Origin: Gluconobacter kondonii
GTDB lineage: Bacteria > Pseudomonadota > Alphaproteobacteria > Acetobacterales > Acetobacteraceae
NCBI RefSeq assembly: GCF_002723995.1
Contig: NZ_BEWP01000002.1
Location: 62,001-126,000 of the forward strand
Direction of reading: 5' to 3'
Length of the DNA stretch: 64,000 nt
Position numbers and translations under genes: made by a program. Shown here piece after piece: positions 5,474 through 33,907 of the stretch (positions are counted from its first letter, which is position 1; the number at the start of each line of letters is the position of its first letter). The notes beneath the pieces were generated by a model. That model was not told the DNA's origin. It was given only the letters and a program-made list of their open reading frames with translations, and ran no database searches.

Positions 5474-8019
5474 CCGCCAGCCGAGACGGGTGGCGTCGCG
5501 GCGCCATCCTTGCTCCCCGTCAACAGACTGAAAACACCTTCAGAAGCTGTCCCTTTCATCGACGGACCAAACCGAGTCTGAAGATTTCTGAGTGTCTGCT
5601 GATCCTGCGCTCTGGACGCATCTCCGCCAATCCGAAGAATGAGAGCCTGCTGGTCCGGAGAAAGCGGCGCCTTCGCCGCCTCGCCAGCTCCCGGCAGCGC
5701 GTCCAGCATGGGCGTCAGGGCCTCCACCGCCCGGGACCACTCCCCTGCCTTTTCAGCTATCTGGGCCCGCAGCGTCCAGGCCCGCGGATCCCGAATGCTA
5801 GCAAGTTCGCCCGCTGCTTCATCCGAACGATGATCGGCCAGAGCAATCTGCGCGCGCAGAAGCGCAACCTCCACGGACTGACTGCTGCTGCCTCCCGGTA
5901 GCGCCAGCGCAGCATCAGGAGAGCCTTCGGCAAACCCTGAGAGATCCTGCCGTGCTGCCTTGGCATCTCCCATATCGAGTTCCAGCTTGGTCAACCGGAT
6001 CCGGACGGCCATGCCCTGCGCCCCACTTTGGAGATCCGCAAGCTTCCTCAAAGCATCCCGTTCCTGATCGGGCAGCCCCATGGCCTCATAACGACGGGCC
6101 AGACCGTCGAGAATATCCCGCTGTAAAGGAACGTTCTCTGAAGCTCCGTTCAGCGCATCCTTCAGAAACGCAACTTCATCCATATTCTGCCTCCCCCCTG
6201 AAGAGGCAGCCTGCGCCATACGGCGGATGATATCAGTCTTCTGGGGCTCCACTTCCGCCATATCGTCAGGATAGAGGCGATCCCATTCCCGAATCGCTGC
6301 CGCAGCCCCTGCGAGGTTGCCACCGTTCATCAGAGCCTCAATCTGCAAAAGCCGCGCATTCTTTTCCCGCCCTGCGATCCGAAGTGCCGGCAGGACGCCA
6401 TCAACCTGATCGGCAACAGCCTGCGGGGGCAGAGTTTTCTTATCCAACGCCTGCTTAAGAAGCGCTTCTCTTGCCACCGGCCAAACCAGCGGCGACGCTT
6501 CATGTGACAGCGCCTTCAACTTCTCTTCTGCATCCGGTGCATTCCGGCGAGCCGCCAGAAGCGCTTTCGCAAGAGCCACTTGCGGCTCATCTGGAAACTT
6601 CTCAAGAATTTTCGTCGCGTTTTCATTTCCATAGCGCGCCACCCACTGGGCGGCAGACGGCAGGAGGCGATCTCGCAGAGGGGCCGCATATGCCTGAAGA
6701 ACAGGCAAACCTGTCGCAATCAGGTCTGCCGTATGACTATGGTCGCTTTCCACCGTTCCCGATGCAATCTGCCCAGCCCTACTGGTGGGCGGCATGAGCA
6801 TACGCATCATTCCACGCCAGAGCTGATCTTCAGGAGTACTTTCTCCATCTTCAGTCAGATAAGATAAGGCTTCGCGCTGGTTAAGCACGGCCGAAATCTG
6901 TTGCAACCGACGCGCCTCAGGTTTTTCCGCGCCTTCAGGCCAGTCCTGCAACGCCACCTGCATGACTTCACCCAGGAGCGGTCCGTTCCCCACACGCGCT
7001 GCCGCCTGGGCAACCCGCATACGAGCCTCAAACCGATCGGCCGATGAGGCCAGAGCGGCGGCGCGCACACTTCTTCTGAGGGCCTCACGCAATTCTTCTG
7101 GCGTTCCGCTTCTCAGGCTGACACCACTCAGGGAAGAGCCATAGGGCTGAAGCCGATTGGCCCCCATCAAAGGGAAACTCCCCGGCCCCATCGTATCCAG
7201 AACTAGCTTTCCGGCCGTCTGACGCAATTCGATATCATCAGAATCAGCCGCAACCACCACACCCATCAGACTGCTTCGAACTGCAAATCCGCTTCCCTGA
7301 CGGCGCATGGGCTGTTCGATACGTCCCGATCGCGTCATTCCCAGAAGCAGCCTCCGACCCGAGGCCGGGTCATCCAGTGCCACGACCTGAGGTAATCCAT
7401 CCTGAACAGGCGATGTGAACGTCAATGCGTTTCCGTCCTGCCCCAGCAGCATATCGGCCTGAGGTTTTGCGTCAGAAGCGATCGAAACCGTCCACCCCGC
7501 CCCCACAGGACGCAAAACCGGATCACGATCATCAGACAATCCAATCGTTATAACCGTTACATCAGGGAGAAGTCTGCTGGAGACGGACGTGAAGGGCCCG
7601 ACGCCAGACAGGCCTGCCGTATCAAGAGCATGCCGTCCGGCCGCCACAAGGACGATATTCTGACCGTTCCGAAAAGCTGCAACAGGCGTCAGTTCCCCAA
7701 GCGGGAGCCAGAGTCCGGTCGCGTCAGGAACCTGCATGGACGCCGCAGACGACACATTAACAACCTGAGGTTGAGGTTCGGATATCGGAGTGAACCCCGC
7801 CGAAATCCGTTTCTCCTGCACAGCTTTTTCCGGGTGCGGGAAAAGAGGCGCAGGATCGTTTAAAAACGACCATCCAGCAGGCAACAGCTTATCATCCGCT
7901 GCAGGACCGACAGGGCCTTTCTCTGGTCCGGATTTGACACTGGACGTTCTGGTCTGCGCGGCGATTGCTCCTCCAAGGGAAGAGAAACCCAGAACTGCGG
8001 CCAGGATCACCCTTTTCAT
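5470..8019 (-). CDS. Large exported TPR-type protein of the flagellar operon, function unknown
   Basis: 849 residues with an N-terminal signal peptide (cleavage likely after AIAA, near residue 20). The first 300 residues are a Pro/Gly-rich beta-like region; the remainder is Ala/Leu/Arg-rich and helical, with spaced TPR-like pairs such as the helices around ALLRAQIALADHRSDEAAGEL. No enzyme motif is visible. It is the last gene of the leftward fliL-fliM-DUF6468-motE operon, its ATG overlapping the motE stop (ATGA). In rhizobia MotE is a periplasmic chaperone of the exported motor protein MotC. By position this protein could be the corresponding MotE client, but no sequence identity to MotC can be claimed from reading alone. 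Confidence 0.75.
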   Translation of the reverse strand: MKRVILAAVLGFSSLGGAIAAQTRTSSVKSGPEKGPVGPAADDKLLPAGWSFLNDPAPLFPHPEKAVQEKRISAGFTPISEPQPQVVNVSSAASMQVPDATGLWLPLGELTPVAAFRNGQNIVLVAAGRHALDTAGLSGVGPFTSVSSRLLPDVTVITIGLSDDRDPVLRPVGAGWTVSIASDAKPQADMLLGQDGNALTFTSPVQDGLPQVVALDDPASGRRLLLGMTRSGRIEQPMRRQGSGFAVRSSLMGVVVAADSDDIELRQTAGKLVLDTMGPGSFPLMGANRLQPYGSSLSGVSLRSGTPEELREALRRSVRAAALASSADRFEARMRVAQAAARVGNGPLLGEVMQVALQDWPEGAEKPEARRLQQISAVLNQREALSYLTEDGESTPEDQLWRGMMRMLMPPTSRAGQIASGTVESDHSHTADLIATGLPVLQAYAAPLRDRLLPSAAQWVARYGNENATKILEKFPDEPQVALAKALLAARRNAPDAEEKLKALSHEASPLVWPVAREALLKQALDKKTLPPQAVADQVDGVLPALRIAGREKNARLLQIEALMNGGNLAGAAAAIREWDRLYPDDMAEVEPQKTDIIRRMAQAASSGGRQNMDEVAFLKDALNGASENVPLQRDILDGLARRYEAMGLPDQERDALRKLADLQSGAQGMAVRIRLTKLELDMGDAKAARQDLSGFAEGSPDAALALPGGSSSQSVEVALLRAQIALADHRSDEAAGELASIRDPRAWTLRAQIAEKAGEWSRAVEALTPMLDALPGAGEAAKAPLSPDQQALILRIGGDASRAQDQQTLRNLQTRFGPSMKGTASEGVFSLLTGSKDGAATPPVSAGG

Positions 8020-8738
8020 CCGTTGCTACCAATCCGGGCAATGGGACGTGCATGAGAATTTGCAAGAAGCTGTGTCGCCAGAATGGCGCGTTGAGGCGAC
8101 ATCGCTTCCATGATCGCCGAAGCCTTGCGAGAGTTCATCCTGTTGAGGAGCGCCGCACCAACGCGTAAATCCAGAATATTGAAGATCGCGGCGGCATCTT
8201 CCGGCCTCATCGTCTGATAGATTTTGACGAGCCGATCCGCGTCATCGTTCCGCAACAGGTCCGTATGTTGTTCGCTGCTTTCAAGCGCTGTTCGGGAATT
8301 TTCCAGCGCAGTCATGCGGCGCTGAAGTTCTTCCTCAGCAGCATCAACAAGACGTTGACGGTCATTCAGAGCCGCATCCCTGCGATTCAGTTCTTTCTCC
8401 CGTGAAGCGAGTTGCTCAGCGAGAGCAGGATCAGCGGGCTGGACCAAAGAAGGCACATCTGCGGATGCAGGACCCTTACATCCCCCTTTGGCACACAGAT
8501 CATCGGTTTTCGGAGAAGCCCCAGCGGCAGGAGGAACGGTTTCAGCAGGCTTGGGAGGCTGAACCTGAAGAGGCGCCGGCGCAGGTGCAACAGGTTGAGG
8601 TTGGGCCATGGCGACAGCAGTCAGAGCGGACGATGAGGCCTCTGTATCACCCATCAGATCGCCCGCAATAGCGTAAATCTTGACCCCGAGAAGAACAATC
8701 ATCAGGCCACAGGCAAGATGCAGAATACGGAAAAACAT
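8016..8738 (-). CDS. motE: MotE family protein (MgtE_N-like domain), flagellar motor chaperone candidate
   Basis: 240 residues. One membrane segment or uncleaved signal at about residues 5-25 is followed by a Pro/Ala-rich linker. A charged coiled coil follows (KELNRRDAALNDRQRLVDAAE). The C-terminal domain, of the type found in MgtE intracellular N domains and in MotE, contains MRPEDAAAIFNILD and MNSRKASAIMEAM. In Sinorhizobium MotE is a periplasmic chaperone needed for the motor protein MotC. Here the gene sits in a flagellar operon, 6 bases after the DUF6468 gene, and overlaps the next gene by ATGA. The family call rests on the C-terminal domain and context; the symbol reflects family rather than proven function. 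Confidence 0.78.
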   Translation of the reverse strand: MFFRILHLACGLMIVLLGVKIYAIAGDLMGDTEASSSALTAVAMAQPQPVAPAPAPLQVQPPKPAETVPPAAGASPKTDDLCAKGGCKGPASADVPSLVQPADPALAEQLASREKELNRRDAALNDRQRLVDAAEEELQRRMTALENSRTALESSEQHTDLLRNDDADRLVKIYQTMRPEDAAAIFNILDLRVGAALLNRMNSRKASAIMEAMSPQRAILATQLLANSHARPIARIGSNG

Positions 8739-13796: not shown

Positions 13797-15899
13797 TTAT
13801 TTCGCCTGCCCAAGTTCAGACCACAAATACGCATAGCTAAGTGCCTGAGTCTGGGCGATTTCCTTCTGGCTGGCCCCGAAGCCATGACCGCCAGCAACCT
13901 GCTCCCAATAATAATAGGGCAGTTTGAGTTCGCTCATCCGCCAAGCAAAACGCCTTGCATGAACAGGACCGACGCGATCATCCTTCGTGGTCGTCTCGAT
14001 GAACGGCACGGGATATTTCACATCGGGCTTGAGGTTCTGAAGCGGCGAAATTCCGCGCAGGAACGCCTTCTGCTCGGGGATGGAGACCGTTCCATATTCC
14101 CCGACCCACGACGCGCCCGCCGACATGTGTTCGTAGTTCATCATGTCCAGCAGCGGCACTTCGATATCAACAGCCTTCCAGAAATCCGGATGCTGCGTGA
14201 ACTCCACGCCCATCAACAGACCGCCATTGGAACCGCCCTGAATCGCCAGATGCTGCGGCGACGTCACTTTACGGTCCATCAGATCCTTCGCTACGGCAGC
14301 AAAGTCGTCATAGATCCGCTGGCGATTGGTCTTCAGACCCGCATCGTGCCAGGCCGGTCCGAATTCTCCACCGCCGCGGATATTCGCCAGAACATACACC
14401 CCGCCGCGCGCCAGCCAGTTATTGCCGATCCCGGCCGAATAGAACGGGAAAAGCGGCACTTCAAACCCGCCATAAGCGTAAAGAAGTGTCGGGTTGGTTC
14501 CATCCAGCGCCATGTCCCGGGGATGGACGATGAAATACGGAATGCTGGTGCCGTCTTTCGAGCGAACTTCCTGCTGTTCCACCGCCATCTTCGAGGCGTC
14601 GAACTGCGCTGGCAGCGTATGGAGCTTCTGAACCGAAGCCGTGTCGCTGTTGATCTCCCACAGCGTGGTCGGGCTCAGGAAACCGCTCGAAACAGCATAA
14701 GCCACCGGACTGTCTTCATCGACGCTGGCCAGATCGACCGACATGTTCTCTGGCAAAGGCAGATCCCGGTGCGTGAAGGCCGCGCCTGTGGGCGTATAGA
14801 TCGAAATCTTGCCCCGCACATTGTCATAGAGCGTGACGATCAGATGGCCATGGCTCGTGGACGCCCCCTCGATCATCTGACGGCCCGTCGGTGCCACCAG
14901 AAGCTGGGGCGCGACCGTTGCCGCAGCCGGATCGACCAGCACCACGCTGCCCTGCGGGAAGGACTGCGCTCCGACCTTCCAGTCTTCCTTGAGCTGAACC
15001 ACCAGACGACCATTGAACAGTCCGGCAACATCCGCCTTCAGGGGAATGGCGACCTGCGTCACCTGACCGCCCCGATACAAGAACAGCTTCGACGAAAACG
15101 CATCCAGCCCTTCGCGGATCAGCATGACCTGATGTCCTGCGCCGTCATGCAGCACTTCCGGCCCGACTTCGACGTCCTTCCGGCTGCCGGTGAAAACCGT
15201 CTGCGCCTGATCGAGGGACTGGCCGCGCTTGAGAAGCTTCACGATGTACGGATAAGAGGATTCCGTCACATCTGCAGACGTCCAGGGATAGCTGACCAGA
15301 AGCGTGTCACGGTCTAGCCAGCTTGAATCCTGCTTGGCATGCGGAAGATTGAACCCGCCCTCGACGAATTTTCCAGTCCGCAGATCAAATTCCCGCACGG
15401 TCTTGGCATCTTCACCACCATCGGAAAGATGGAGCAGGCAGAGATTCTGCTGGCTGTGCAGGCAGTCCACCCCGCCATAAACCCAGTTACGCTTTTCCTT
15501 CGCCGCCAGCGCATCCAGATCCAGCGCGACAGTCCATTCCGGATGATCGGTCGCATAGGAATCCGGCGTCGTCCGGCGCAGGACACCCCGCAAATGTTGG
15601 TCATCACGCCAGAAATTATAGATCATCCCGTCGATCTGGATGGGAGAGGCGAGACGATCATGCGTCTGAAGCAGTTTCAGGGACGTCGCATATAGGCTCT
15701 GGTAAAGCGGACCATGCCCCAGAAGGCGCAGAGTACGGGCGTTCTGCTCCTTCACCCAGGCCATCGCCTGCGCGCCATTGATATCGCTCAGCCAGCCGGG
15801 AATGGTGTCGGGAACATCCGCCGCATGCAGCGGCGTGAACATGCTGCCCGTCAGCAGAACGGCTAGACCGGCCCGGCGAAAACTGCGAAAAACTGTCAC
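13797..15899 (-). CDS. Exported prolyl oligopeptidase family (S9A) serine peptidase
   Basis: 700 residues from a GTG at 15899, chosen because AGAAGGA precedes it by 9 bases and a signal peptide ending in LHA follows directly. The open frame upstream to 16118 runs into phoR. A beta-propeller half is followed by an alpha/beta hydrolase domain with Ser 557 in GGSNGGLLMG, Asp 640 in KDDRVGP and His 672 in GGHGFG. This is the S9A prolyl oligopeptidase layout, acting on proline-containing peptides; the signal peptide places it in the periplasm, unlike the cytosolic mammalian enzyme. It follows phoR by 37 bases, so it may be read through from the pho operon, with translation controlled by the hairpin at 15908-15932. 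Confidence 0.9.
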   Translation of the reverse strand: MTVFRSFRRAGLAVLLTGSMFTPLHAADVPDTIPGWLSDINGAQAMAWVKEQNARTLRLLGHGPLYQSLYATSLKLLQTHDRLASPIQIDGMIYNFWRDDQHLRGVLRRTTPDSYATDHPEWTVALDLDALAAKEKRNWVYGGVDCLHSQQNLCLLHLSDGGEDAKTVREFDLRTGKFVEGGFNLPHAKQDSSWLDRDTLLVSYPWTSADVTESSYPYIVKLLKRGQSLDQAQTVFTGSRKDVEVGPEVLHDGAGHQVMLIREGLDAFSSKLFLYRGGQVTQVAIPLKADVAGLFNGRLVVQLKEDWKVGAQSFPQGSVVLVDPAAATVAPQLLVAPTGRQMIEGASTSHGHLIVTLYDNVRGKISIYTPTGAAFTHRDLPLPENMSVDLASVDEDSPVAYAVSSGFLSPTTLWEINSDTASVQKLHTLPAQFDASKMAVEQQEVRSKDGTSIPYFIVHPRDMALDGTNPTLLYAYGGFEVPLFPFYSAGIGNNWLARGGVYVLANIRGGGEFGPAWHDAGLKTNRQRIYDDFAAVAKDLMDRKVTSPQHLAIQGGSNGGLLMGVEFTQHPDFWKAVDIEVPLLDMMNYEHMSAGASWVGEYGTVSIPEQKAFLRGISPLQNLKPDVKYPVPFIETTTKDDRVGPVHARRFAWRMSELKLPYYYWEQVAGGHGFGASQKEIAQTQALSYAYLWSELGQAK

Positions 15900-22277: not shown

Positions 22278-22296
22278 TCCGAACGATTTCTTAAAA

Positions 22297-22338
22297 ATAT
22301 CAAAACGCCCCGCAGGCTCCTGCGGGGCGTTTTGATAT
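22297..22338. terminator. Bidirectional rho-independent terminator after dps
   Basis: A perfect 19-bp stem (22297-22315 with 22320-22338) contains CGCCCCGCAG, with a 4-base loop and AT-rich stem ends with A and T runs. It lies between dps and the convergent small gene and can end both transcripts. Confidence 0.92.
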
Positions 22339-22782
22339 TCAGAGACAGCGATCCAGATGCTCCCGAGCGAAAACAAGCTGCATAGAGTCATGTACCCGAC
22401 AATCCTCCTCCGATTGCGGAACTGTGCAGGCTTCAGAACTGTCCTGTAACGGCTCATGCTTCACAGCAGAAGAAAACGACTGCTCATCTGGCAGAGCCGC
22501 GGCAATCAGAGCCGCCAGATGTTCAAAATCACTGGTTCCTAATGGCCCCGGCTCAACGTGCGGCCTTTGGTGAACGATCCAGTTTTTTGTCAGCTCTTTC
22601 AGGCTGCCCCATTCCCGCACTCCCTCCGAAGACGGCGTCTCAGCCATTCCCTCCGTTGTCGCAACAGCAAGGGCATGAAAGTCGGAGTCTGTAAGCAAAG
22701 CAGGATGGGACGATACGCCCTTTCTGCAAACCCAACTCCTCAGAGAGTTTTTGATAGCCGAGACAACTTCGTTTTTAACCAT
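22339..22782 (-). CDS. Hypothetical protein at the end of the secretion/glycosyltransferase cluster
   Basis: 147 residues with no motif I recognise. The sequence is acidic in its second half, has no signal peptide or membrane helix, and contains four Cys, three of them in the C-terminal third. The stop is directly at the terminator stem, as expected for a last gene. It lies 92 bases after the glycosyltransferase gene on the same strand. No strong ribosome site precedes the ATG at 22782. Reality as a gene is likely but not certain. Confidence 0.5.
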   Translation of the reverse strand: MVKNEVVSAIKNSLRSWVCRKGVSSHPALLTDSDFHALAVATTEGMAETPSSEGVREWGSLKELTKNWIVHQRPHVEPGPLGTSDFEHLAALIAAALPDEQSFSSAVKHEPLQDSSEACTVPQSEEDCRVHDSMQLVFAREHLDRCL

Positions 22783-22874
22783 GATCTGCGCGCTTCATCA
22801 TCGGGAATTCGTCAATTCTGCAATCAAAAACGGCCACAGAAAGAGATCAAATCCCTGTTGTTTGCTCTTCGACG

Positions 22875-24101
22875 TCATTTCGTCTTGATGATCCGTTGAA
22901 CCAAATCGTCATAACGCTCCAGATAATCATCCAAACAGAGTTCGGCTTCAGCATAACGCCGGGCTTCCTGCCCCAATCGACGGGCGCTGCGACGATCATC
23001 CAGAAGCTGCAATGTCGCCTCTGCGATTGCAGCTGAGTCCAGAAACGGTACCAGACGCCCGGTGACATCATGCGTAATGAATTCCCTGACGGGCGCTGTA
23101 TCACTCCCGACAACCGGACAACCTGTCGCCATAGCTTCACGTAGAGACCAGGACGCAACAAACGGATAGGTCAGATACAAATGAGCATCTGATCGTCGCA
23201 GTAAGGCTCGGAAATCATCATATTCGACCTTTCCGACAAAATGCACACGGTCAAGGTCCAGCTTACCCGCCAGTTCGCGCAACATGAATTCGCGCCAGCT
23301 TCCTCCACTAGGAGGAAGTGTGCCGTAGCTGACCCTGTCTCCACCCACAAGAATGACCTGCGCATCCTTACGCTCGGCCAGAATACGCGGGAGCGCGCGC
23401 ATGACCACATGAAATCCCCGATAGGGTTCAAGATCACGGGCAACATAAGTGACAAGCGCATCTTTGGGGGTGATCCGAACCCCGTTAATGACGAGATTGC
23501 GCCGCTTAGCCTGAGGCTCGGGGGAACAGAGATCCAGATTCACCCCTTCCCGCAGCAGTGAAATTTTTTCCCGCGCCCATTCAGGATAGGTTTCACGCTG
23601 AAATTTTGTCGGGCTCTGACCATAACCGTTTGTCAGACAAAGTGCTTGCAGATTAATCGAATTCTTGACCCGCACGGCAGCCGCCAGTTCCGCAGAGGGC
23701 GGGAACTCCGGGTCAAAACCGACATCATTCTGATCCGCGTGGTAGAAAAACTCGAAATATCCAAGGATCGGACAACCGGGGAAAACATCCCCCAGATTCA
23801 GCAGTTCACCCCAGCCATGATGTCCGACAATAATATCAGGCTCATAACCCAGCCCCTTGAGCGTGCGGGCCGCAGTTGCAACGGCTTCGGCACGGAGCAG
23901 GCCATATTCAAATTCTCTCAGATGGGGATGCGTCTCCATCGAAGGCAGACGCGGGACACGGTAGATAGCGCGCCTGACACCCGGAATATGGTTGTTGTTC
24001 GCCTCCGAAATAAAGACGATCTCGTGACCCTGCGCGAGGAGATGACGGACAAAATGAAGGAATTGCCCGGGAAAATTCTGATGGACGAATAGGTAACGCA
24101 C
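22875..24101 (-). CDS. GT4-type glycosyltransferase
   Basis: 408 residues from a GTG at 24101, preceded by GGAG at 5 bases; the frame upstream to 24149 adds an unlikely tail. The start RYLFVHQNFPGQFLHFVRHL is the N-terminal nucleotide-sugar GT-B domain typical of the PF12000 group. The C-terminal half is a Glycos_transf_1 domain with VTYVARDLEPYRGFHVVMRA and EAMATGCPVVGSDTAPVREF, including the donor-binding acidic region. It is a retaining sugar transferase; acceptor unknown. It belongs to the leftward cluster with a type I secretion system and a second glycosyltransferase, so polysaccharide assembly or modification of a secreted product are both possible. Confidence 0.88.
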   Translation of the reverse strand: MRYLFVHQNFPGQFLHFVRHLLAQGHEIVFISEANNNHIPGVRRAIYRVPRLPSMETHPHLREFEYGLLRAEAVATAARTLKGLGYEPDIIVGHHGWGELLNLGDVFPGCPILGYFEFFYHADQNDVGFDPEFPPSAELAAAVRVKNSINLQALCLTNGYGQSPTKFQRETYPEWAREKISLLREGVNLDLCSPEPQAKRRNLVINGVRITPKDALVTYVARDLEPYRGFHVVMRALPRILAERKDAQVILVGGDRVSYGTLPPSGGSWREFMLRELAGKLDLDRVHFVGKVEYDDFRALLRRSDAHLYLTYPFVASWSLREAMATGCPVVGSDTAPVREFITHDVTGRLVPFLDSAAIAEATLQLLDDRRSARRLGQEARRYAEAELCLDDYLERYDDLVQRIIKTK

Positions 24102-24178
24102 GTTTTCTCCGGAGCGACTGGAACCCTCCGTGAAGTCCTGTTCGCGCACGGAGAAGACAGCGGATGACAGAGACCTTC

Positions 24179-24218
24179 AAAGTGACCGGGGAACACAGGT
24201 TCCTTCCCCAGTCACTTT
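24179..24218. repeat. Long imperfect inverted repeat between the 321-residue gene and the GT4 gene
   Basis: AAAGTGAC and GGGGAA on the left pair with TTCCCC and GTCACTTT on the right, with a single C/A mismatch and a 10-base loop. It sits between two leftward genes. On the minus strand no T-run follows, so it is a weak terminator candidate or an mRNA processing/stability hairpin. Confidence 0.6.
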
Positions 24219-24236
24219 GCCAGACCTCAATGGCAG

Positions 24237-25202
24237 TCAGGAAACCGCAGCAGATTTACGCTTTCTGGATGCGGCGGGTTTGGCCGGAGCATCAGCGGCT
24301 TTTGCAACGCGTGCCTTTGGGGCAGCCTTTGCAGGAGCTTCCGGCTCCACCAGTGCCTCATTTTCAGGCACGATTTCAAGCAGGAAGGCTTCCAGAGGGG
24401 CGAGGCTTTCAGCTTCAAGCGCCTCGGAACCATCAACAGGGCCAAGGCGCGTTCCATCCGTGAAGGACGCCGTAAGACGAATCTTCAATGTTTTCGCGGA
24501 TTCACCCTTCAGACGAACACGCAACCCGAGGATCGGAAGCGCCATGCCACGCGATCCACAATACTGACCGCCTTCAGCCCAAGGGGAAAGCCATCCCTTG
24601 CCGAGAACGGCCTGATATTCAATGTCCGCAACCGGAACGCCATTTTCGGGAGCAATACTAAAGCCCTCAATCCAACCCTGGCTGCCCGGAACACCCATCC
24701 AGTGCCCGATACCACCCGTCACATCGCCACGGCGTTGGATATGTGCGGAAATATCCTTGGAAACGGCCTGCTCCGCCGCAGTTTCAACCTTTTCAGCAGC
24801 AGGAGACGCGGGAGCGGATTCTGGAACAGCAGATTGCGAAGGTGCTGTAGTCACAGGACCGGCAAGCTGTGCAACCTGCAGACGAGGAGCTGCGTGAAGG
24901 CTGTCAGGCTCCTGATACGTTGTCACCAGAACAGCGGCCGGACCACGCATGACTCGCACCAGAGCAGCGCCGTTTGAGCCACCGATCCAGCCATCTTCCT
25001 CGAAAGTGCTGACGGCCACGATTCCGGGAGGCGTACCCGGCGCGCGTGAAATCCGGACGCCCGGCAATCCGGCGGGACCTGCAGGAGCCTGACCAGCAGC
25101 ATGGAAAATGCAGAAAATTCCTGCATCCAGCACCATCATATGTGCCCCGGCCTTAAGGTCGATGACCCGGTTCTGTCGTGGTGCTTCGGCGGCGTTAGAC
25201 AT
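24237..25202 (-). CDS. Uncharacterised protein with a putative ChW-like module, in secretion/glycosyltransferase cluster
   Basis: 321 residues with no clear signal peptide. After a beta-rich N-terminal domain (residues 10-115) and an Ala/Pro/Glu linker, residues about 150-235 carry two Gly/Trp repeats. These are AHIQRRGDVTGGIGHWMGVP with SQGWIEGFSI, and VADIEYQAVLGKGWLSPWAE with LPILGLRVRL. The second resembles the hydrophobic-W (ChW) repeat of cell-surface proteins (YQAHVQ..GW..WV...AG..G...R.E.I.I.L). The tail is an Ala/Lys-rich basic stretch resembling histone-like tails. A ribosome site AGTAGGGA precedes the ATG. Function unknown; a glycan-binding role is inferred only from the repeat. 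Confidence 0.7.
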   Translation of the reverse strand: MSNAAEAPRQNRVIDLKAGAHMMVLDAGIFCIFHAAGQAPAGPAGLPGVRISRAPGTPPGIVAVSTFEEDGWIGGSNGAALVRVMRGPAAVLVTTYQEPDSLHAAPRLQVAQLAGPVTTAPSQSAVPESAPASPAAEKVETAAEQAVSKDISAHIQRRGDVTGGIGHWMGVPGSQGWIEGFSIAPENGVPVADIEYQAVLGKGWLSPWAEGGQYCGSRGMALPILGLRVRLKGESAKTLKIRLTASFTDGTRLGPVDGSEALEAESLAPLEAFLLEIVPENEALVEPEAPAKAAPKARVAKAADAPAKPAASRKRKSAAVS

Positions 25203-25385
25203 TCCCTACTCCCAATTGCATCCGTTCTTACGGGCAATAATACTGGCATGTTTCTAGACTGTCACGAATGGTCGTCACAGTTATGAGCGGTATTCCGACG
25301 AGATGTTGCAACAGCTTTCGACAAATACCGGTTTCTGTTCAAGCCACCATAATGGACTGTTTCGATAGAAAAGGTAAACCATCCC

Positions 25386-28349
25386 TCACTGAAGCGCGCC
25401 CCAGCGTCGAATCACTATCATGGCAAGCTGAAACGGCGGCATCCCCAGTGGTACAGCCAGACCAGTTCCGCTTCGCGTGACCCGCTCTCCCTGTGCGCCC
25501 AGATCGAAACAGACCGCCTCCAGACCGCTGCGCCAGATATGGCCCAGAGCATAACACCAGGTCTCCGGTGCAATGGAAGGAATCAGCCCGACATCTGGCT
25601 GCTGCTGCTGGATCAATGCCTGCACTTCATCTTCACGATATTCACCCGTAACCCGGACTCCGAGCGACATCAGAGCATCGTCATCATGCGTATGTCCAAC
25701 CAGAGAAAGCTCAATCGGAAGGCGGTGCTTCTGGATTTCGGCAGCTAGTGTCAGCAGGACGTCGTACCCTTTCCACCGACTGATCCCGCCCACGACACAA
25801 ACCCGCACCGGTTGCCCATATGCGGCGTGATGACCTGTCCGGATACTCTTGCGAAGCGTAGCATCATCTTCCAGCGCAACAGCTTCAATAATCACACCGG
25901 GAAAGTGCCGTCTGATCCGTCGCACGGTGTCTTCAGAAGGCGCCATGAGCCTTCGGGCGCCAGACAGCTCCTGTCCTGAACGCGCCACCAGAGCAGACAC
26001 CGAAATGTCTTCTCCCAGATAACCACCCCAGCGTGTCACACACTGTTCACATCCCGTTATGTCCGGCTCGCCACAGTAACGCCCCTCTCCGTCGCAGAGG
26101 GAAATACGCGGGCAAAACCAGACATGGTCGTGAATAAACACATCATACGGCACCCCAAGCCGCTCATGTAATGTTCTGACGCAGGGTGCATGGCCTATCA
26201 GATGATGCCATTCGACAACCTGGACCCGCACGGTCCGAAGCACGTCCAGCAGAAGCGGAAGGTCCTCGGAAAGGCGGAACGTCAGGTTGGGGAAGCGCTT
26301 GTCGTCCAAAGCATCTTCCAGACTACATCCTTGCTCATGGGGACGCAGAGCAAGCGCCAAGCCACCATCAGCTTCAAACACTTCCGAGCGTTCACGCACC
26401 ACCCGCCCGACACCGCCTCCTGCGTCATGCTGCACCATCAGCATAGCAGACCGCCCCCCAGCCAGACGGATCAAACGTGCGATATCCAGTCTGCGCCGGG
26501 TTGTATGCAGAGGGTCGGCGTCGATAAAGCGTTTCACCAGACGATCATAACCGGGGTGCAGAGCGTTAAGAATCTTCAGATTCCGTGCACCAAGAGATTT
26601 TCCGGCCGTCCCGAATGAGACCGATCCGATATGGGCGACAAACAGATCCGGGGCGGGGAGATGTCGAAAACCGCTCGCAGACGCCCGAAGGCAAAAATCG
26701 TTTTCCTCGCCGTACCCCTGACCGAACAGATCCTCCCGAAACAGACCAATCTCGGCCAGACAATCTGCGGAAATCGCCATACAAAAACCGTGAGCGGTAG
26801 GGAGGTCCGGCCCGTCGCAAGAAGTTTTGCCCGTTGCTTTGAATGTCTCCTGACACAGCCGGTCCAGCGCCCGCATGTCCGCAAGTGACGGAACCGGATT
26901 GGGACGATCCACGGCAGGATAGGACAGGATCGTCGCGTCATTGGAAAATGGCGTCACCGTTCCAACATCGGTGAAGGCCAATCTTGCCCGCATCCGTTCA
27001 ACCCAACCCGCGGGAACGAGCGTATCGCTGTTGAGCAGCAGAATATCCCGCCCCTCTGCCGCCCGCATGCCGTCATTGGCAGAAATCGGAAAACCTTGAT
27101 TCTGGAGATGGCGGATCAGGACGATCCGGCCTTCCGCTGCCAGTTGATCGAGCGCTCGCGCCAGAGGAGGCTCAGGGGTCGCGTCGTCCACGACGATCAC
27201 CGACACATCGGCCGGGCATGTCGCCAGCACGGTGCGCAAACAGGCCATTGTCCGGCGCAGATCCGCATAAACCGGAATGACAACCGCGCATCCCGGACTT
27301 GTGCGGGGACAGCGCGGGCGTGGCGTCCAGGTTCTGACCTTTACGGGCCGCAGTCGGGCAGGCAGGCCACCTCGTCGGCCCAACGTCAGTCTCCCTACGA
27401 GCGGATCTACGGGTGCTCCCGTCAAAAGACATCCGTTTTCGTCTCGCAATGCCAGAGGGCCAGTGTCGTTTTCTGGCACACGGCTGGTTGGGATATGAAA
27501 AACCTTCGTGCGGGCCAGAGGAATGTCGCTGTCCACATCCTCTGCAAATGTCTCGGCCCGGAAGGTGGCCCCATCCCAAAGCGTGACACAAGGGCTATAT
27601 TCAGGTTCAGCCGGAGCCCAGATCCAGCCTCTCAGGCCATCAGACGTCGCTTCAACAAAAGATTCACATCGCGTCAGGACACGAATGTCCAACGGACTGC
27701 CGAGAACATGCCGACGACCAACGCGCACGTCCAAAGAACGGGCCGAACGCCAGTCTTTCGGCAGATCATATGTGCCGCTTTCGTTTCCCTGAATGCACTC
27801 CTGCCCGTCCAGAAACAGCTTGAACGGTCGGGATACTTCGATGAAAATGGTGTCCGTATTGGATGCGGTCATCCAACCCGGACGTCCAGCCGCAACAGCG
27901 ATCTGTCTGGCCAGAAGATGCGTTTGCGGCGTGGCATGGAAACGCGAAAGAGCCGTCTGCATTCTGTGAATGGCCTCTTCCATCCGCTGAAGCCGCACAA
28001 GGCAGATAACCTCCAGAAACGCTGCTTCCCGCAAGCCGAAATCCTGACGCAACCCCTCCATTCGCACCAAACAGTCGCTGATCCGCCCTGCCGACAGACA
28101 GGCCAGCCCGACGGACCATTTCAGATTGGGATTATGACGGGACATTCTTTCCGCCCGCTCCAACCAGAACAGACCCAGAGACGTATTACCCGCCTGAAGA
28201 GCGGCCTGTCCTCTGGCAAAAGCCTCCTGCGCTCTACGGCTCATGGCCTCCCGCCAGCGGAGCCGGTCTTCTTCGCTGACAACCCGTCCAAAGCCCGCGA
28301 ATGACGCACTCAGTTTCTGTTCGCTGGAGGCGAGCCGCTCAGAAGACAC
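25386..28349 (-). CDS. Three-part glycosyltransferase: TPR + GT2 + GT4 domains
   Basis: 987 residues. Residues about 35-165 are TPR-like helices (FARGQAALQAGNTSLGLFWLERAE). Residues about 165-345 form a beta-rich linker. Residues about 355-600 are a GT2 (GT-A) domain with CAVVIPVYADLRRTMACLRT, VIVVDDATPEPP, the sugar-nucleotide DxD-like LLLNSDTLVP and the acceptor-side GYGEENDFCLRAS. Residues about 640-985 form a GT-B domain with VVGGISRWKGYDVLLTLA. Such bifunctional enzymes build short glycans, often on surface polymers or proteins. The start is a GTG 5 bases after the Sel1 gene stop, so the two are coupled. It is among the more distinctive proteins here; acceptor unknown. Confidence 0.88.
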   Translation of the reverse strand: MSSERLASSEQKLSASFAGFGRVVSEEDRLRWREAMSRRAQEAFARGQAALQAGNTSLGLFWLERAERMSRHNPNLKWSVGLACLSAGRISDCLVRMEGLRQDFGLREAAFLEVICLVRLQRMEEAIHRMQTALSRFHATPQTHLLARQIAVAAGRPGWMTASNTDTIFIEVSRPFKLFLDGQECIQGNESGTYDLPKDWRSARSLDVRVGRRHVLGSPLDIRVLTRCESFVEATSDGLRGWIWAPAEPEYSPCVTLWDGATFRAETFAEDVDSDIPLARTKVFHIPTSRVPENDTGPLALRDENGCLLTGAPVDPLVGRLTLGRRGGLPARLRPVKVRTWTPRPRCPRTSPGCAVVIPVYADLRRTMACLRTVLATCPADVSVIVVDDATPEPPLARALDQLAAEGRIVLIRHLQNQGFPISANDGMRAAEGRDILLLNSDTLVPAGWVERMRARLAFTDVGTVTPFSNDATILSYPAVDRPNPVPSLADMRALDRLCQETFKATGKTSCDGPDLPTAHGFCMAISADCLAEIGLFREDLFGQGYGEENDFCLRASASGFRHLPAPDLFVAHIGSVSFGTAGKSLGARNLKILNALHPGYDRLVKRFIDADPLHTTRRRLDIARLIRLAGGRSAMLMVQHDAGGGVGRVVRERSEVFEADGGLALALRPHEQGCSLEDALDDKRFPNLTFRLSEDLPLLLDVLRTVRVQVVEWHHLIGHAPCVRTLHERLGVPYDVFIHDHVWFCPRISLCDGEGRYCGEPDITGCEQCVTRWGGYLGEDISVSALVARSGQELSGARRLMAPSEDTVRRIRRHFPGVIIEAVALEDDATLRKSIRTGHHAAYGQPVRVCVVGGISRWKGYDVLLTLAAEIQKHRLPIELSLVGHTHDDDALMSLGVRVTGEYREDEVQALIQQQQPDVGLIPSIAPETWCYALGHIWRSGLEAVCFDLGAQGERVTRSGTGLAVPLGMPPFQLAMIVIRRWGALQ

Positions 28350-28354
28350 GCAGA

Positions 28355-30127
28355 TCAGTCATCGTCATCGGGCTGCGCTTCGTCCAGAAGGGCCAGTTCC
28401 GCTTCTGCATCCTTGATGTTCTGCGCTTTCGCACGCTCCAGCCATATCCGACCTTCAACCGGATCCGTCACACCAGCCAGTCCACGGCAGAGGTAACGAC
28501 CCAGCATCATCTGCGCCAGTCCGTTACCCCGCTGCGCGGCCTTGCGGAACCATATCTGAGCCTGAGGCCGGTTTTCGGGAATATCATGTCCCCCACCATA
28601 AAGCGCCGCCAGCGAGAACATCGCATCCACATTGCCACTTTCAGCAGCATTCTGATACAGCGCCAGGGCTTTCTCATGATCCCGGCGTCCATTGATGCTT
28701 CCATCAACCAGCAGCCCAGCAACCGCGACCTGAGCCTCAGCCATGCCAGAGTCCGCAGCTTTTTCCATCCAATACAACGCCTGCGTTGGATCAGGTTGTA
28801 CGCCGCGACCTTCAAGCAGCATCCTGCCATACCAGTACTGGGCATTCACCACACCGTCCGCAGCTTTCTGCATCCACCGTGCGGCTTCACGTCCATTCTG
28901 TTCGCCAGTCACGCCCTCGGCAAAACAGACGCCGAGATTGTAAGCCCCCACCAGATCGCCTTTTTCAGCCGCTTTTTCAAAGCGGGCGTGCAGCGCCTGT
29001 TTTTCATCGGGTGTAGCGGAAGCCCCTGCGAGGATCAGGTTGCCAAAATCGGCATCTGCATGTGCATCCCCAGCTTCAGACGCAATTTTGAACCAGTGGG
29101 ATGCGACATCAGGGTCCTGATGCACCCCGTTTCCAGTCAGATACAGCAGTCCCAAAGCCCGCGCTGCGCCAGCATGCTTCTGTTCTGCGGCAAGCCGATA
29201 CCATTTTGATGCCTCAACGAGATTGGGCGGCAAATCTCCACCATTAGCGCACAGATCACCAAGTAAAGCAGCAGACTGCGTGTCACCATTCGTCGCAGCC
29301 CGCTTCAGCCAGGTTTCAGCCCGGCCGAAATGCCTGCGGATTCCGGTCCCCTCCAGAAGCATCAATCCGTAGCGGGCCTGCGCCGTCACAATATTGCGTT
29401 CGGCCGCCTCATGAAAATAGGTAGCGGCTTTGCCGAGATCGCGTGGCACACCCGAACCTGATTCATACATCCGGCCAAGAATATCAAACGCCGTCCCAAG
29501 ACCACCTTTCGTCGCTTCCATCAAATGCCGGGCCGCAGAAGAAAGCTCCTCATCTGTCCTAGCATTGTCGAGAATGGAAAGGGCCACTCCCAGATGCCCT
29601 TGCGAACATCCTGCCGCAGCAGAGCGGTCGTACCATGAACGGGCCTGCGACAGATCCCGCAGATCTTCAGGCCCGTTCGTAAGAATATAGCCAAGAAGCG
29701 CCTGGGCATCAGGAGACCCGGCTTCCGCAGCAATCTTGGCCCAATGGAGGCCAAGATGAAAATCCGGATGTCTGGGACCAGACGAGGGGACGTGAGAAAG
29801 ATCCAGTCCATCGCGGACTGACTGAATTTCAAATCCTTCCGGAAGCCCCACCGTGTAAAGAGTGGCCAGAACGAAAGTTGCTTCAGTATGACCCGCCTGT
29901 GCCGCCTGATAGATCCAACGGGCTCCATCTCCCAAACTGGGAGGAACGCCGATTCCATCCAGATAGGCACGCCCGACGCGGAAGGAGGCTTCCCCGTCTC
30001 CAGTCGCCGCGAGGCGACTGAACAGAGCAAATCCCTGAACCGCCTTGCCACTTTCCGTCAGACGGATTGCATATTCTAGCTTCCCCTTTGACGAAAACAG
30101 GGCGGCAAGTCGAGATTTGAATGACAT
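28355..30127 (-). CDS. Sel1-repeat (TPR-like) protein
   Basis: 590 residues from the ATG at 30127; a GTG three codons earlier (30136) is an alternative. Almost the whole length consists of Sel1-like repeats of about 36 residues, with the pattern A..LG.LY..G.GV..D...A..W...AA..G: for example AARALGLLYLTGNGVHQDPD and AQYWYGRMLLEGRGVQPDPT. At least a dozen units are visible. No signal peptide is apparent, so a cytoplasmic scaffold is likely. Sel1 proteins act as adaptors in secretion and exopolysaccharide systems; here the gene lies between the T1SS adaptor and a fused glycosyltransferase, which fits a scaffold joining the two. The C-terminus is acidic (PDDDD). Confidence 0.87.
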   Translation of the reverse strand: MSFKSRLAALFSSKGKLEYAIRLTESGKAVQGFALFSRLAATGDGEASFRVGRAYLDGIGVPPSLGDGARWIYQAAQAGHTEATFVLATLYTVGLPEGFEIQSVRDGLDLSHVPSSGPRHPDFHLGLHWAKIAAEAGSPDAQALLGYILTNGPEDLRDLSQARSWYDRSAAAGCSQGHLGVALSILDNARTDEELSSAARHLMEATKGGLGTAFDILGRMYESGSGVPRDLGKAATYFHEAAERNIVTAQARYGLMLLEGTGIRRHFGRAETWLKRAATNGDTQSAALLGDLCANGGDLPPNLVEASKWYRLAAEQKHAGAARALGLLYLTGNGVHQDPDVASHWFKIASEAGDAHADADFGNLILAGASATPDEKQALHARFEKAAEKGDLVGAYNLGVCFAEGVTGEQNGREAARWMQKAADGVVNAQYWYGRMLLEGRGVQPDPTQALYWMEKAADSGMAEAQVAVAGLLVDGSINGRRDHEKALALYQNAAESGNVDAMFSLAALYGGGHDIPENRPQAQIWFRKAAQRGNGLAQMMLGRYLCRGLAGVTDPVEGRIWLERAKAQNIKDAEAELALLDEAQPDDDD

Positions 30128-30189
30128 GGGCAGCACAAGTCCTGAATCACTGTCGTGTTGGAACGCCCGGACTTTACCGGACGTTCAAC

Positions 30190-30213
30190 TTGAGTGTTGT
30201 TAGAAACACTCAA
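30190..30213. repeat. Perfect 9-bp stem-loop between the HlyD and Sel1 genes
   Basis: TTGAGTGTT at 30190-30198 pairs with AACACTCAA at 30205-30213 around a 6-base loop. It lies in the 94-base gap after the HlyD adaptor gene. No T-run follows on the minus strand; it may modulate expression between the secretion genes and the downstream genes. Confidence 0.5.
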
Positions 30214-30221
30214 ACTCCCTG

Positions 30222-31682
30222 TTACGGCTCCCTCATACCATTCGTCAGGGCAGGCGTAAGGTTGTTGAACAGATACTGCAGCACGGTCCGTTTTCCGACG
30301 TCGATATCAGCAGTCAAAGACATGCCCGGCATAGGATGGAAAAACGATGGCTGACCATGCAGCGTGTAACGGTCAATCCGCAAGCGAACACGATAGACAC
30401 CCAACGCAGTGGAATCTTCGGAAGACGGACTCCCATTTCCACTCGCACCGCCATTCTGCGACGACGGTGTGAAAGCATCGGCACTGATGACACGAACCGT
30501 AGCTTCTGCACCCCCATATTGGTCATAAGGGAACGTCGAGAATTTCAGGATTGCGTGATCTCCAACCTGAACGAAGCCTACATCCTGCGAGCGCAAAACG
30601 GCCTCCATCTCCAGCCCATATCCCGTGGGAACAAGGGTAATGAACTGCCCCGCAGACTGAAGAACGGAGCCGACCGATCCCTGCCCAACAGTCAAGACAA
30701 TACCATCTTCCGGGGCACGCAGAAGGACAAGATCCTGACGCAGACGGGCTTTTTCAAACGAGCTGCGATATTCTGACAGATGATGACCGGCCTCCGTCAG
30801 TTCCGAGTAAATCTTGGCCTGCCAGTTACCAATATAACCGTCGCGTTCCGCCTTCATGGCAGCCAGCTTTTTCTCGGCAGAATTCGCACTTTGCTGAGCG
30901 GATATTTCCGACCGCTCGGCTTCCATCATTTCGCTCTGGGCACCGAGAGTTGAAAGCCGGGATCCCACCTGATCAGCCTGTTCGCGCTGTCTCATCTGAA
31001 GCACTTCAGACGCAACCCGCATCTTGCTGCCATACATGGCCGCATTGGCACGGTATCCCTGAATGTCGCTTTCAAGACCCGCAATCTGCTGATCGTAATT
31101 TTCGATATGGCCCTGATATTCGGCCTTGCGACGCAAGAACGCTGCTCCCTGCTCCACAGATGCCGGATTATTCAGATCGACCTTGTAGTCCTGACCGGCA
31201 GCTTCTGCTTTCAGACGATCATACTCAGCCTGATAGGCATCACGTTGCAGCCGCATATTTGTAATATCGGCTTCGGTAATCGTCGGATCGAGATGGGCGA
31301 GAACCTGCCCCTTTTTCACGAAATCGCCAACCCGCACATCAATCGAGCGGATAATTGCCGTTTCAAGCGGCTGCACAACGATCGTCGGCTGCGTAGAAAT
31401 CAGGCGCCCGGGTGTTGAGACAACACGGTTGATCGGGAAGAATGCCATCGCAGCCAGGGATGCCATAAACAGCCCCCCGATCAGCAGGATAACATAACGC
31501 GCTGAGGGCGTGGCTGGAAGATTGACGAGCCCGGCTGTCGGTGAATGGAATTCCAGCAACGCTAGCGGAATATCATCAGGAGCAAACGGATCCGCAGCAG
31601 AGCGCGGAATATGCTGGTTGAAGTCTTCGTCGGCCTGCTGGGGCGTCCGGTCATCTTTCGGAATCATGTCGGAAGAGCTCAT
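30222..31682 (-). CDS. Type I secretion membrane fusion protein, HlyD family
   Basis: 486 residues. One membrane helix (RYVILLIGGLFMASLAAMAFF, about residues 62-82) is followed by a lipoyl half (VQPLETAIIRSIDVRVGDFVKKGQVLAHLDPT), a long coiled-coil hairpin rich in Gln, Arg and Ala, the second lipoyl half (LRAPEDGIVLTVGQGSVGSVL) and a beta-barrel domain. Family members connect the type I ABC exporter with a TolC-like channel. An insertion rich in Ser, Gly and Asn (SSQNGGASGNGSPSSED) in the beta barrel is unusual. It starts 2 bases after the ABC gene, so they are one operon. No TolC-type channel gene is adjacent. Confidence 0.93.
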   Translation of the reverse strand: MSSSDMIPKDDRTPQQADEDFNQHIPRSAADPFAPDDIPLALLEFHSPTAGLVNLPATPSARYVILLIGGLFMASLAAMAFFPINRVVSTPGRLISTQPTIVVQPLETAIIRSIDVRVGDFVKKGQVLAHLDPTITEADITNMRLQRDAYQAEYDRLKAEAAGQDYKVDLNNPASVEQGAAFLRRKAEYQGHIENYDQQIAGLESDIQGYRANAAMYGSKMRVASEVLQMRQREQADQVGSRLSTLGAQSEMMEAERSEISAQQSANSAEKKLAAMKAERDGYIGNWQAKIYSELTEAGHHLSEYRSSFEKARLRQDLVLLRAPEDGIVLTVGQGSVGSVLQSAGQFITLVPTGYGLEMEAVLRSQDVGFVQVGDHAILKFSTFPYDQYGGAEATVRVISADAFTPSSQNGGASGNGSPSSEDSTALGVYRVRLRIDRYTLHGQPSFFHPMPGMSLTADIDVGKRTVLQYLFNNLTPALTNGMREP

Positions 31683-31684
31683 GA

Positions 31685-33907
31685 TTACTCTCCTTCAGTC
31701 AGTTGCCCGGCAGCGCCAGGAACATCGTTATCTGCCATGTGCCGGTTCTGCTGCAGCCAGAGCATCCGGTAGATCTCGCAACGTTCAAGCAGGATCTTGT
31801 GCGGTGCGATATCGACCAATTTACCCTTATCCATGACAGCAATTTGATGGCAGTCCACAAGAGAGGAAAGACGATGGGAGACGATCACCATCGTACGACC
31901 CTTGCCGATCCGCTGCAGGTTGGCGTTCACAAGCGCTTCAGATTCCGGATCCAGAGCCGAGGTCGCCTCATCAAGGATCATCAGTTTCGGATCACTGATG
32001 ACAGCACGTGCAATCGCAAGCCTCTGCCTCTGACCACCCGAAATATTGGTCGAACCTTCTTCAATCCATGTGTCGTAGCCAGCCGGCATACGCTCAATGA
32101 ACTCCTCAGCACCGGCAAGGCGCGCGGCCCGGATGGCATCATCAATCGTCAGACCGGGCCGACCAGCAGTGATATTGTCACGGATCGTACCACGGAACAG
32201 GAAGTTGTCCTGAAGAACAACACCAAAAGAGCGACGCAGATGGGTCAGGTTAATTTCCCGCAGATCCACTCCGTCAAGGCGCAGATAACCCGTATAGTTA
32301 CGGCTAACACCTTGCAGAAGGCGCGTTACTGTCGACTTTCCAGATCCTGAACGTCCCACAAGACCAAGCATTGTACCTGCCGGAATATCGAACGTCACAT
32401 CATTCAGGGCTTTGCTGGTCGATCCTGGGTAAGAGAAATCAACATTTACGAAAGACAGCGCGCCTTTGATGACAGGACGCATCCCGGTTGTCAGCGCCTT
32501 GGTCTCCGTAGGCTGGTTCAACACTTTTCCGGCTTCGCTGAGGGAAACACTGACCTCATTGAATGCTTCCATCAGTCTGGCGAGATTGACCAGCGGACTG
32601 GCAACACGCCCGCCCAGCATCATGAAACCCATCAACGCGCCAGCCTGCATGGAGCTTGCATTTGTAAGAATGAGATAGGCACCAATCAGGATAATGCCGC
32701 GGTTAATAAAAATTTCGAATGGCATGGCAAGCGTCTGCGGCCAACTGGCCATGCGCCCTGCCGCCAGTTTCCAACGGACAACTTCAGCCGTTCGCTCGTC
32801 CCATACTTCACGTCGTGTCGCTTCCAGAGCCAGCGTCTTGACCGTCCGGATACCGGCGACCGTCTCATAGAGAACCGAGCCACGCTTCATTTCCGCTATA
32901 ACCTGTCGACCGATGACACGCGTAACAGGAGGCAGGAAAATCACAACAATGAGACCGATACATCCTGCGGCGGCAAGTGTCATCCAAGCCAAAGTGGCAC
33001 TGAGGATGAACAGGACAGGAAGGACCACAACAAGCGTAAAAAGATCCAGCAGGGTTGTCATCAACTGACCGGTCAGAAAGTCTCTAACCTTAAAGACAGA
33101 CATAAACCGGCCCAGAATCTCACCCGTCTGTTCACGCTCGTAGAATTCGAGCGGAAGGGCAAGAAGTCTGTTGAACGCATGCAGCGAAATTCTCGCATCC
33201 AGTCGGGTAGAGAGAATCAGAGAAAGTTCGCGGCGGGCGTAGGTCAGCAGAATTTCATAAAACGACAGAATAAGAATAAAGCCGCTCATCGAAATGAGCG
33301 TCGCCATGGAGTGATAATTCACCACACGATCGATAACCTGCATGACGATCAGTGCTGGAAAAATCTGAAGGATACTCAACACCAGCGACGCAAAGGCGAT
33401 GTCGCGCATGACCTTCTTTTCGCGGAGCACCATCTTGGAGAACCACAAAAGGTCGAAGTTGGCGTCCGCTTCGGATTCGTCCCGACGGCGTTTGACCAGC
33501 AGGACATCTCCGGTCCAGACCTGCATGAGTCGCAGCTCGTCAACCGGAACCGGCGCATCCCCTTCCCCGCCCATCGGATCTCGGAGCCAGACCACGCCTT
33601 TTTCAGCATCAGCGCGAACCATGAGGCCCGCTGATCCGTCCTTGAACATCAGGACAACAGGCGGCGCATTACGGATTTTGATCAGGTAGCGCCAACGAAG
33701 GCGCATGCCTTTGGCAACAGCACCCTGTTCATTCAGCCATCTTGCCAGAGTAGCGGGGGACGGTGAATCCTCCCCCGGCTCGGCCGCAAAATCGCGGATA
33801 TCCAGTTCCAGACCGTGATAACGGGCTGCGGCCAGCACGGCGTAAAGCCGGATGACGGTCGGACTGACTCTTCCGCCCGGGCCTGACAAGCTCTGGGTAT
33901 GCTCCAC
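31685..33907 (-). CDS. Type I secretion ABC transporter with degenerate C39-like peptidase domain
   Basis: 740 residues from a GTG at 33907, with AGAGGA 6 bases upstream. The frame is open to 33961, but without a ribosome site. Residues about 10-135 correspond to the C39-like domain of HlyB/LapB exporters; the catalytic Cys is missing (the place reads AVLAAARYHG), so it should bind rather than cleave its cargo. Membrane helices follow at about 165-440. The nucleotide-binding domain has GLVGRSGSGKST, SGGQRQRLAIARA and MILDEATSALD. It is the first gene of the leftward cluster and would export a protein with a C-terminal signal. No RTX substrate gene is visible in the window. Confidence 0.94.
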   Translation of the reverse strand: MEHTQSLSGPGGRVSPTVIRLYAVLAAARYHGLELDIRDFAAEPGEDSPSPATLARWLNEQGAVAKGMRLRWRYLIKIRNAPPVVLMFKDGSAGLMVRADAEKGVVWLRDPMGGEGDAPVPVDELRLMQVWTGDVLLVKRRRDESEADANFDLLWFSKMVLREKKVMRDIAFASLVLSILQIFPALIVMQVIDRVVNYHSMATLISMSGFILILSFYEILLTYARRELSLILSTRLDARISLHAFNRLLALPLEFYEREQTGEILGRFMSVFKVRDFLTGQLMTTLLDLFTLVVVLPVLFILSATLAWMTLAAAGCIGLIVVIFLPPVTRVIGRQVIAEMKRGSVLYETVAGIRTVKTLALEATRREVWDERTAEVVRWKLAAGRMASWPQTLAMPFEIFINRGIILIGAYLILTNASSMQAGALMGFMMLGGRVASPLVNLARLMEAFNEVSVSLSEAGKVLNQPTETKALTTGMRPVIKGALSFVNVDFSYPGSTSKALNDVTFDIPAGTMLGLVGRSGSGKSTVTRLLQGVSRNYTGYLRLDGVDLREINLTHLRRSFGVVLQDNFLFRGTIRDNITAGRPGLTIDDAIRAARLAGAEEFIERMPAGYDTWIEEGSTNISGGQRQRLAIARAVISDPKLMILDEATSALDPESEALVNANLQRIGKGRTMVIVSHRLSSLVDCHQIAVMDKGKLVDIAPHKILLERCEIYRMLWLQQNRHMADNDVPGAAGQLTEGE

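Follow-up and report, generated by a model that had tools for sequence, protein, structure and literature searches.

What might a type I protein exporter, a repeat protein and glycosyltransferases be doing together in a single run of genes? This question is raised by the window considered here, a stretch of 64,000 nucleotides of Gluconobacter kondonii (contig C2, positions 62001-126000; the genome comprises 3.27 Mb in 63 contigs), in which seven open reading frames (ORFs), all leftward, extend from position 33907 down to 22339 according to the ORF list of the window. With families assigned through Pfam and NCBIfam models with curated cut-offs, they encode a HlyB-like ABC exporter, a HlyD-family adaptor, a Sel1-repeat protein, a fusion of two glycosyltransferase (GT) domains (GT2-GT4), a ChW-domain protein, a separate GT4 glycosyltransferase and a small protein. 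The original prediction, made when only this stretch had been inspected, suggested that all seven genes serve to glycosylate and export a surface protein, encoded elsewhere or among the unknown proteins of the run, and the seven one-strand ORFs that it described are all found. The comparison of genomes lends this core idea strong support, which comes from a conserved unit, from an RTX gene embedded in a GT cluster and from the linkage or fusion of ChW, RTX and GT genes in other bacteria; the seventh gene lies outside the unit, and the glycan itself is inferred from sequence. We consider it probable that the genes belong to a two-locus system in which a surface protein with calcium-binding (RTX) repeats is glycosylated and leaves the cell via type I secretion, a task to which six genes of the window are probably dedicated.

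Six of the seven genes, those for the HlyB-like ABC protein, HlyD, Sel1, GT2-GT4, ChW and GT4, form a tight conserved unit. Every locus that we compared came from a search with one of these six genes, and genomes without the gene in question are uncounted. Among the best 80 of the 106 loci retrieved with the ChW alignment, 64 carry all six genes on a single strand and in this order; contig ends truncate 14 of the remaining ones, the visible genes being in order, and the last two (L195 and L185) are taken up below. Twenty regions were also chosen from the 169 genomes of the family Acetobacteraceae, among 249 searched, that encode a ChW protein; the two sets overlap in some contigs. All 18 uncut regions of these 20 show the six genes in the same order on one strand, two more being cut, and the order is likewise seen in three additional regions (L231-L233). 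The genes flanking the block vary from genus to genus, which indicates that the unit is kept together by something besides general synteny. Conservation in related acetic acid bacteria, which the original prediction had made the touchstone for the seven genes, thus holds for six of them; the small gene adjoins the block in only 13 of the 80 loci at a 55-bit cut, always with a Dps gene adjacent (Gluconobacter, Neokomagataea and Saccharibacter), and it is not part of the conserved unit. A diverged form of this gene was seen by eye in a few further loci.

The ChW gene, used as a marker, is present in 169 of the 249 family genomes and, in a search of 299 order-level genomes, in 198, none of them from outside the family. 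Carriers among the matches listed include Gluconobacter, Acetobacter, Komagataeibacter, Asaia, Bombella and Saccharibacter; the closest relatives of the ChW protein among these matches are from Gluconobacter species (71-88% identity). Given this spread over many genera, the unit may influence the cell surface of bacteria associated with food and insects. Two observations on individual loci can be added. A complete six-gene block is present on a contig of a metagenome-assembled genome labelled Nitrosovibrio (L194), which is a betaproteobacterium; the contig is probably mis-binned Acetobacteraceae. Several species with small genomes encode, upstream of the block, large proteins that by eye resemble autotransporters (L040 60-3464, L044 14-2866, L046 28-2867), followed by a short protein that in L042 is IalB-like.

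What, then, does the exporter carry? The original prediction had placed the cargo gene outside the window, and a genome-wide search for a repeat protein did find, on contig C13, a strong candidate, the only gene of this genome with RTX repeats at E<=0.1. Its product is a glycine-rich protein of 459 amino acids (PF00353, 27.9 bits, above 23) with no Cys, 5 Lys, 27% Ser plus Thr and a C-terminal domain that is conserved between genera. The neighbours of this gene encode a 956-residue GT4-GT2 protein, a 901-residue GT4-GT4 protein and an RgpF-domain protein. When 20 cargo regions from the 138 positive genomes were added to that of G. kondonii, GT ORFs were found in 17 of the 21 regions: 17 have the 901-type, 14 the 956-type and 13 the RgpF-like gene. 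Altogether, the cargo regions contain 45 GT ORFs in their 366 kb, versus 4 in 360 kb of control (20 regions taken from 18 of these genomes). The cargo-specific query matches 123 of the 169 ChW-positive genomes versus 15 of the 80 ChW-negative ones, counts that are uncorrected for kinship.

Could genomes beyond the family help in connecting the two loci? A class-level search of 337 genomes with the ChW profile yielded 6 positive ones, 4 of which belong to the family, and a phylum-level search of 398 genomes with a broader profile yielded 7, of which 5 are family members. There are four alphaproteobacterial outsiders with ChW. In G522, an RTX gene (399 amino acids) lies just upstream of a gene for a 1284-residue fusion with a TPR-like part, GT2, GT4 and ChW, followed by GT4; Pfam calls the GT2, GT4 and ChW domains of the fusion (ChW at 22.5 bits versus a cut-off of 22), Sel1 and RgpF-like genes are found within the same 17 kb, and all six RTX-repeat matches in this 5.5 Mb genome fall in the one RTX gene by the fusion. 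The same GT2-GT4-ChW fusion, again followed by GT4, occurs on a 5.4 kb contig of G492. In G827 the order is ChW, then after about 40 bases RTX (644 amino acids), then GT4, in a genome with four RTX frames, and in G851 it is RTX with a Hint domain, ChW, RTX, two small genes and GT4, in a genome with five. The fusion in G522 and G492, together with the RTX adjacency in G522, G827 and G851, implies that ChW goes with glycosyltransferases and with RTX proteins in separate lineages. At locus L258, ChW lies between two RTX genes; the product of the one just before it (7272-8330) has a Hint domain at its C-terminus (PF13403, 152 bits).

The mechanism that these findings suggest would run as follows. 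The HlyB-like ABC protein and HlyD of the window would supply the inner components of a type I exporter that borrows a TolC-family channel encoded elsewhere, as judged by homology, and the second locus, on C13, would supply the RTX cargo from between its three GT-like genes. In the cytoplasm, the GT2-GT4 fusion and the separate GT4 would put sugars on Ser/Thr (or Asn) residues of the Cys-free cargo, with the ChW protein as a non-catalytic partner of the fusion whose ChW domain would bind protein or glycan, and the enzymes of the cargo locus would lengthen the glycan. The Sel1 protein might scaffold enzymes or cargo close to the exporter, the Cys-less C39-like domain would bind the unfolded RTX cargo, and the conserved C-terminal domain of the latter would serve as an uncleaved export signal. 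Once outside, the protein would fold on calcium into a surface layer or adhesin.

The features of the individual proteins can be examined against this scheme. The exporter and adaptor named in the original prediction are both borne out. HlyB is the top NCBIfam model for the ABC protein (515.9 bits, below that model's cut-off of 725.55), and residues 21-717 of 740 align, nearly end to end, with the solved HlyB structure 7sgr. There is no Cys in residues 1-150, so that the C39-like domain lacks the peptidase Cys; the same holds for 62 of the 63 ABC relatives that match from within the first 30 residues, which have no Cys in approximately the first 30 aligned residues, where the peptidase Cys would be expected. 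The genome encodes six ABC_membrane proteins, and among the four scanned, the window protein is the sole HlyB-like one, the three others resembling MsbA; a pair on C6 lay outside the scan. The adaptor scores 315.2 bits with TIGR01843, above the cut-off of 208.65. The OEP domain gives 26 matches in 13 frames of the genome, none of them within the block. A TolC-family gene (C2:60872-62089, minus strand) enters the left end of the window (1-89); the two long ORFs beside it (281-3457 and 3464-4678), both leftward, have sizes that would suit an RND pump and its adaptor.

As for the remaining proteins, a plain hydropathy scan reveals no N-terminal signal-like segment in Sel1, the GT fusion, ChW or GT4, and no transmembrane segment in the Sel1 protein either, for which the role of a scaffold is possible. 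Both GT domains of the fusion score above the Pfam cut-offs; the motifs around LLNSD and GYGEEND in GT2 are strongly kept, and core GT2 motifs are retained in 66 sequences. In the separate GT4, homology mostly begins at about residue 11-17, so the gene may really begin with the GTG at position 24101; in the 2.0 Mb genome of L046, the GT4 gene (14441-15654) aligns in two frames and may be broken or bear a sequencing error. The alignment of 49 sequences and an AlphaFold2 model (mean predicted local distance difference test score, pLDDT, 83.1) divide the ChW protein into two beta domains (approximately 16-114 and 150-280) and a basic tail, and no convincing solved relative of the model was found. 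The ChW-like module suspected at the outset scores above its Pfam cut-off. Members of the ChW family typically carry several repeats in an exported surface protein; with a single PF07538 stretch and no signal-like segment, the identification as a ChW surface protein was rejected, and we file the product as a ChW-domain protein only.

A more specific possibility, which we put forward tentatively and regard as somewhat less than evenly probable, is a dedicated pre-export machine in which the RTX protein is coated with sugar in the cytoplasm and then threaded as a glycoprotein through HlyB-HlyD-TolC, with ChW reading the glycan such that only finished cargo is passed on. To the same tentative degree, and jointly with this proposal, the enzyme part of the machine could be a ChW-assisted complex of GT2-GT4 and GT4 on the Sel1 scaffold. 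If true, the machine would correspond, within type I secretion, to the accessory Sec route of Gram-positive bacteria, which is a route of glycoprotein export. In the usual view, what type I exporters move along their narrow channel is an unfolded chain; if a conserved exporter unit is accompanied by glycosyltransferases, then either this channel admits glycosylated chains or glycosylation and export are coordinated in time. The parts are known, and a description of the combination was not found in the literature searched, which does not extend to subscription journals. The analysis names one cargo, six genes and one ChW partner, all tractable in Gluconobacter or Acetobacter.

Several facts weigh against the two-locus glycosylation and export system. 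What has been established is gene linkage, from which we infer glycosylation and secretion, and in this genome the cargo and the exporter are on separate contigs (C13 versus C2). The cargo and ChW co-occur only to a moderate degree: once a looser profile contributes its matches, the counts become 151 of 169 ChW-positive versus 57 of 80 ChW-negative genomes (again uncorrected for kinship), and the latter number implies that many family members have RTX proteins without the unit. Glycosyltransferases without the exporter, the pattern that the original prediction had named as contrary to itself, do exist in minor form: the GT-ChW-GT triad stands without exporter genes upstream at two loci, L185 (6.9 kb fetched) and L259 of genome G134 (4.7 kb), which are probably of one genus. 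The 10 kb upstream in L185 hold other genes, with no ABC, HlyD or Sel1, and in L195, where the contig ends 4.5 kb upstream of ChW, the approximately 1.4 kb before the fusion contain no Sel1 match. In the four outsiders, no HlyD or full HlyB-like gene was found near the triad or its parts, only partial ABC-ATPase matches at 27-28% identity. Within the fusion, GT2 and GT4 were predicted correctly and the TPR part is less certain: Pfam calls no TPR at E<=0.1, and the conserved N-terminal pattern looks TPR-like; the second Glu of the EX7E motif of its GT4 is not conserved, and there is one transmembrane-like window inside its GT2 domain (369-387, by hydropathy). Finally, four of the 21 cargo regions (L107, L109, L110, which is cut at a contig end, and L111) have no GT neighbours. 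A long protein that occurs in three of these four genomes (G136, G101 and G118) may replace the enzymes of the cargo locus there. This protein (843-902 amino acids; 644 in L040) is encoded on the opposite strand after Dps or the small gene (L046 16790-19336, L033, L040, L042, L044) and has two GT2 stretches in L046, the others being alike by eye.

Could these genes be accounted for in another way? The main rival, which we regard as unlikely although worth serious consideration, is that the glycosyltransferases build lipopolysaccharide (LPS) or another polysaccharide of the cell surface that holds the RTX protein by non-covalent binding, the exporter only secreting the protein, in the way that the Caulobacter surface-layer protein RsaA binds smooth LPS. 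The linkage of RTX, type I exporter and GT genes is by itself equally compatible with this explanation, and there are sugar genes that suit it, namely the domain for rhamnan synthesis, RgpF, near the cargo, rmlB-, rmlA- and rmlD-like genes for dTDP-rhamnose (named from Pfam matches) between RTX and the triad in G134, and RmlD at 93% identity in L185. On the other hand, no rml match (E<=1e-25) is present beside the other 79 loci, in 23 further block regions or in the 21 cargo regions, and ChW is fused to a glycosyltransferase and adjoins RTX genes. Furthermore, ORFs with at least six transmembrane-like segments number 0 in the 17 cargo clusters (135 kb, with the outer GT ORFs set by us as bounds) and 0 in the four outgroup clusters versus 28 in the 360 kb of control, so that none of these clusters contains a polytopic flippase or polymerase of the Wzx/Wzy type, which could lie elsewhere, no genome-wide search having been made. 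In L259 (4297-8998), the RTX gene and the rml-like genes are followed by a GT4-ChW-GT triad on the opposite strand, 4.6 kb from the RTX gene, with no exporter in the fetched stretch; this arrangement hints that the sugar in that genus could be rhamnose.

That two separate functions, secretion of an RTX protein by the type I route and synthesis of some other glycoconjugate by a GT set, share one transcription unit for the sake of joint regulation would explain why the triad of GT2-GT4, ChW and GT4 stands without nearby ABC, HlyD and Sel1 at two loci. We find this improbable, given that ChW and GT genes are directly linked to RTX in genomes without an adjoining exporter and that the cargo gene has a GT cluster of its own. 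Similarly improbable, in our view, is the explanation that the exporter carries an undetected protein, such as the ChW protein, rather than the RTX protein of C13: the single detected RTX gene of the genome and the fusion of ChW to a glycosyltransferase in two genomes speak against it, while the physical separation of exporter and RTX gene and the treatment of ChW domains elsewhere as surface modules are in its favour.

The coordinates of the run are collected in the table. The ABC gene starts with GTG, and its frame stays open to 33961. The gaps along the run are 2, 85, 5, 183, 87 and 92 bases, close to the predicted ones and not identical with them. The strong terminator expected at the end of the run is there, between the small gene and a convergent gene for a ferritin-like (Dps-type) protein. 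Relatives of the small gene (22339-22782), at 26-34% identity, are encoded near Dps in related genera and share by eye a C-terminal FAREHL-like motif.

Genes of the run and the terminator that closes it, in window positions.
Feature	Position	Strand	Evidence
HlyB-type ABC exporter, C39-like domain without peptidase Cys	31685..33907	-	NCBIfam, HlyB structure alignment
HlyD-family type I periplasmic adaptor, one transmembrane-like segment	30222..31682	-	TIGR01843, hydropathy
Sel1-repeat protein, 11 stretches	28355..30136	-	PF08238 245.7 bits
GT2-GT4 fusion, 987 amino acids, TPR-like N-terminus	25386..28349	-	Pfam/NCBIfam
ChW-domain protein	24237..25202	-	PF07538 25.5 bits, cut-off 22
GT4 glycosyltransferase	22875..24149	-	PF12000 + PF00534
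Small protein, no family above a cut-off	22339..22782	-	Pfam/NCBIfam
Strong hairpin terminator	22290..22345	-	21-bp stem, -36.7 kcal/mol, z -8.5

How does the proposed glycosylation and export system compare with those already known? It shares with the HlyBD-TolC secretion of RTX proteins the Cys-less C39-like ABC protein, HlyD and the unlinked TolC-family proteins, as well as a candidate cargo that is glycine-rich and Cys-free, with RTX repeats and a conserved C-terminal domain; it differs in the coupling to Sel1, GT2-GT4, ChW and GT4 genes, in an ABC protein below the NCBIfam cut-off for HlyB and in a cargo gene on another contig. The RsaA locus of Caulobacter likewise combines a type I exporter for an RTX surface-layer protein with surface-polysaccharide genes nearby; those genes make the LPS anchor, whereas the clusters described here hold no flippase or polymerase. 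Glycosylated RTX-repeat surface proteins have a precedent in the cyanobacterial SwmA and oscillin, reported as such (PMC3034196, PMC2943079); the present cargo is alphaproteobacterial, and its glycosylation is a prediction. The closest working model, by analogy, would be FlmG of Caulobacter, a soluble cytoplasmic O-glycosyltransferase whose TPR part binds flagellin (PMC7591256). FlmG consists of TPR and one GT-B domain and acts on flagellins, in contrast to the GT2, GT4 and ChW components and the RTX protein of the present system; what the two would have in common is a soluble alphaproteobacterial glycosyltransferase with an N-terminal repeat domain (TPR-like and uncalled by Pfam in our case) that modifies a protein before its export.

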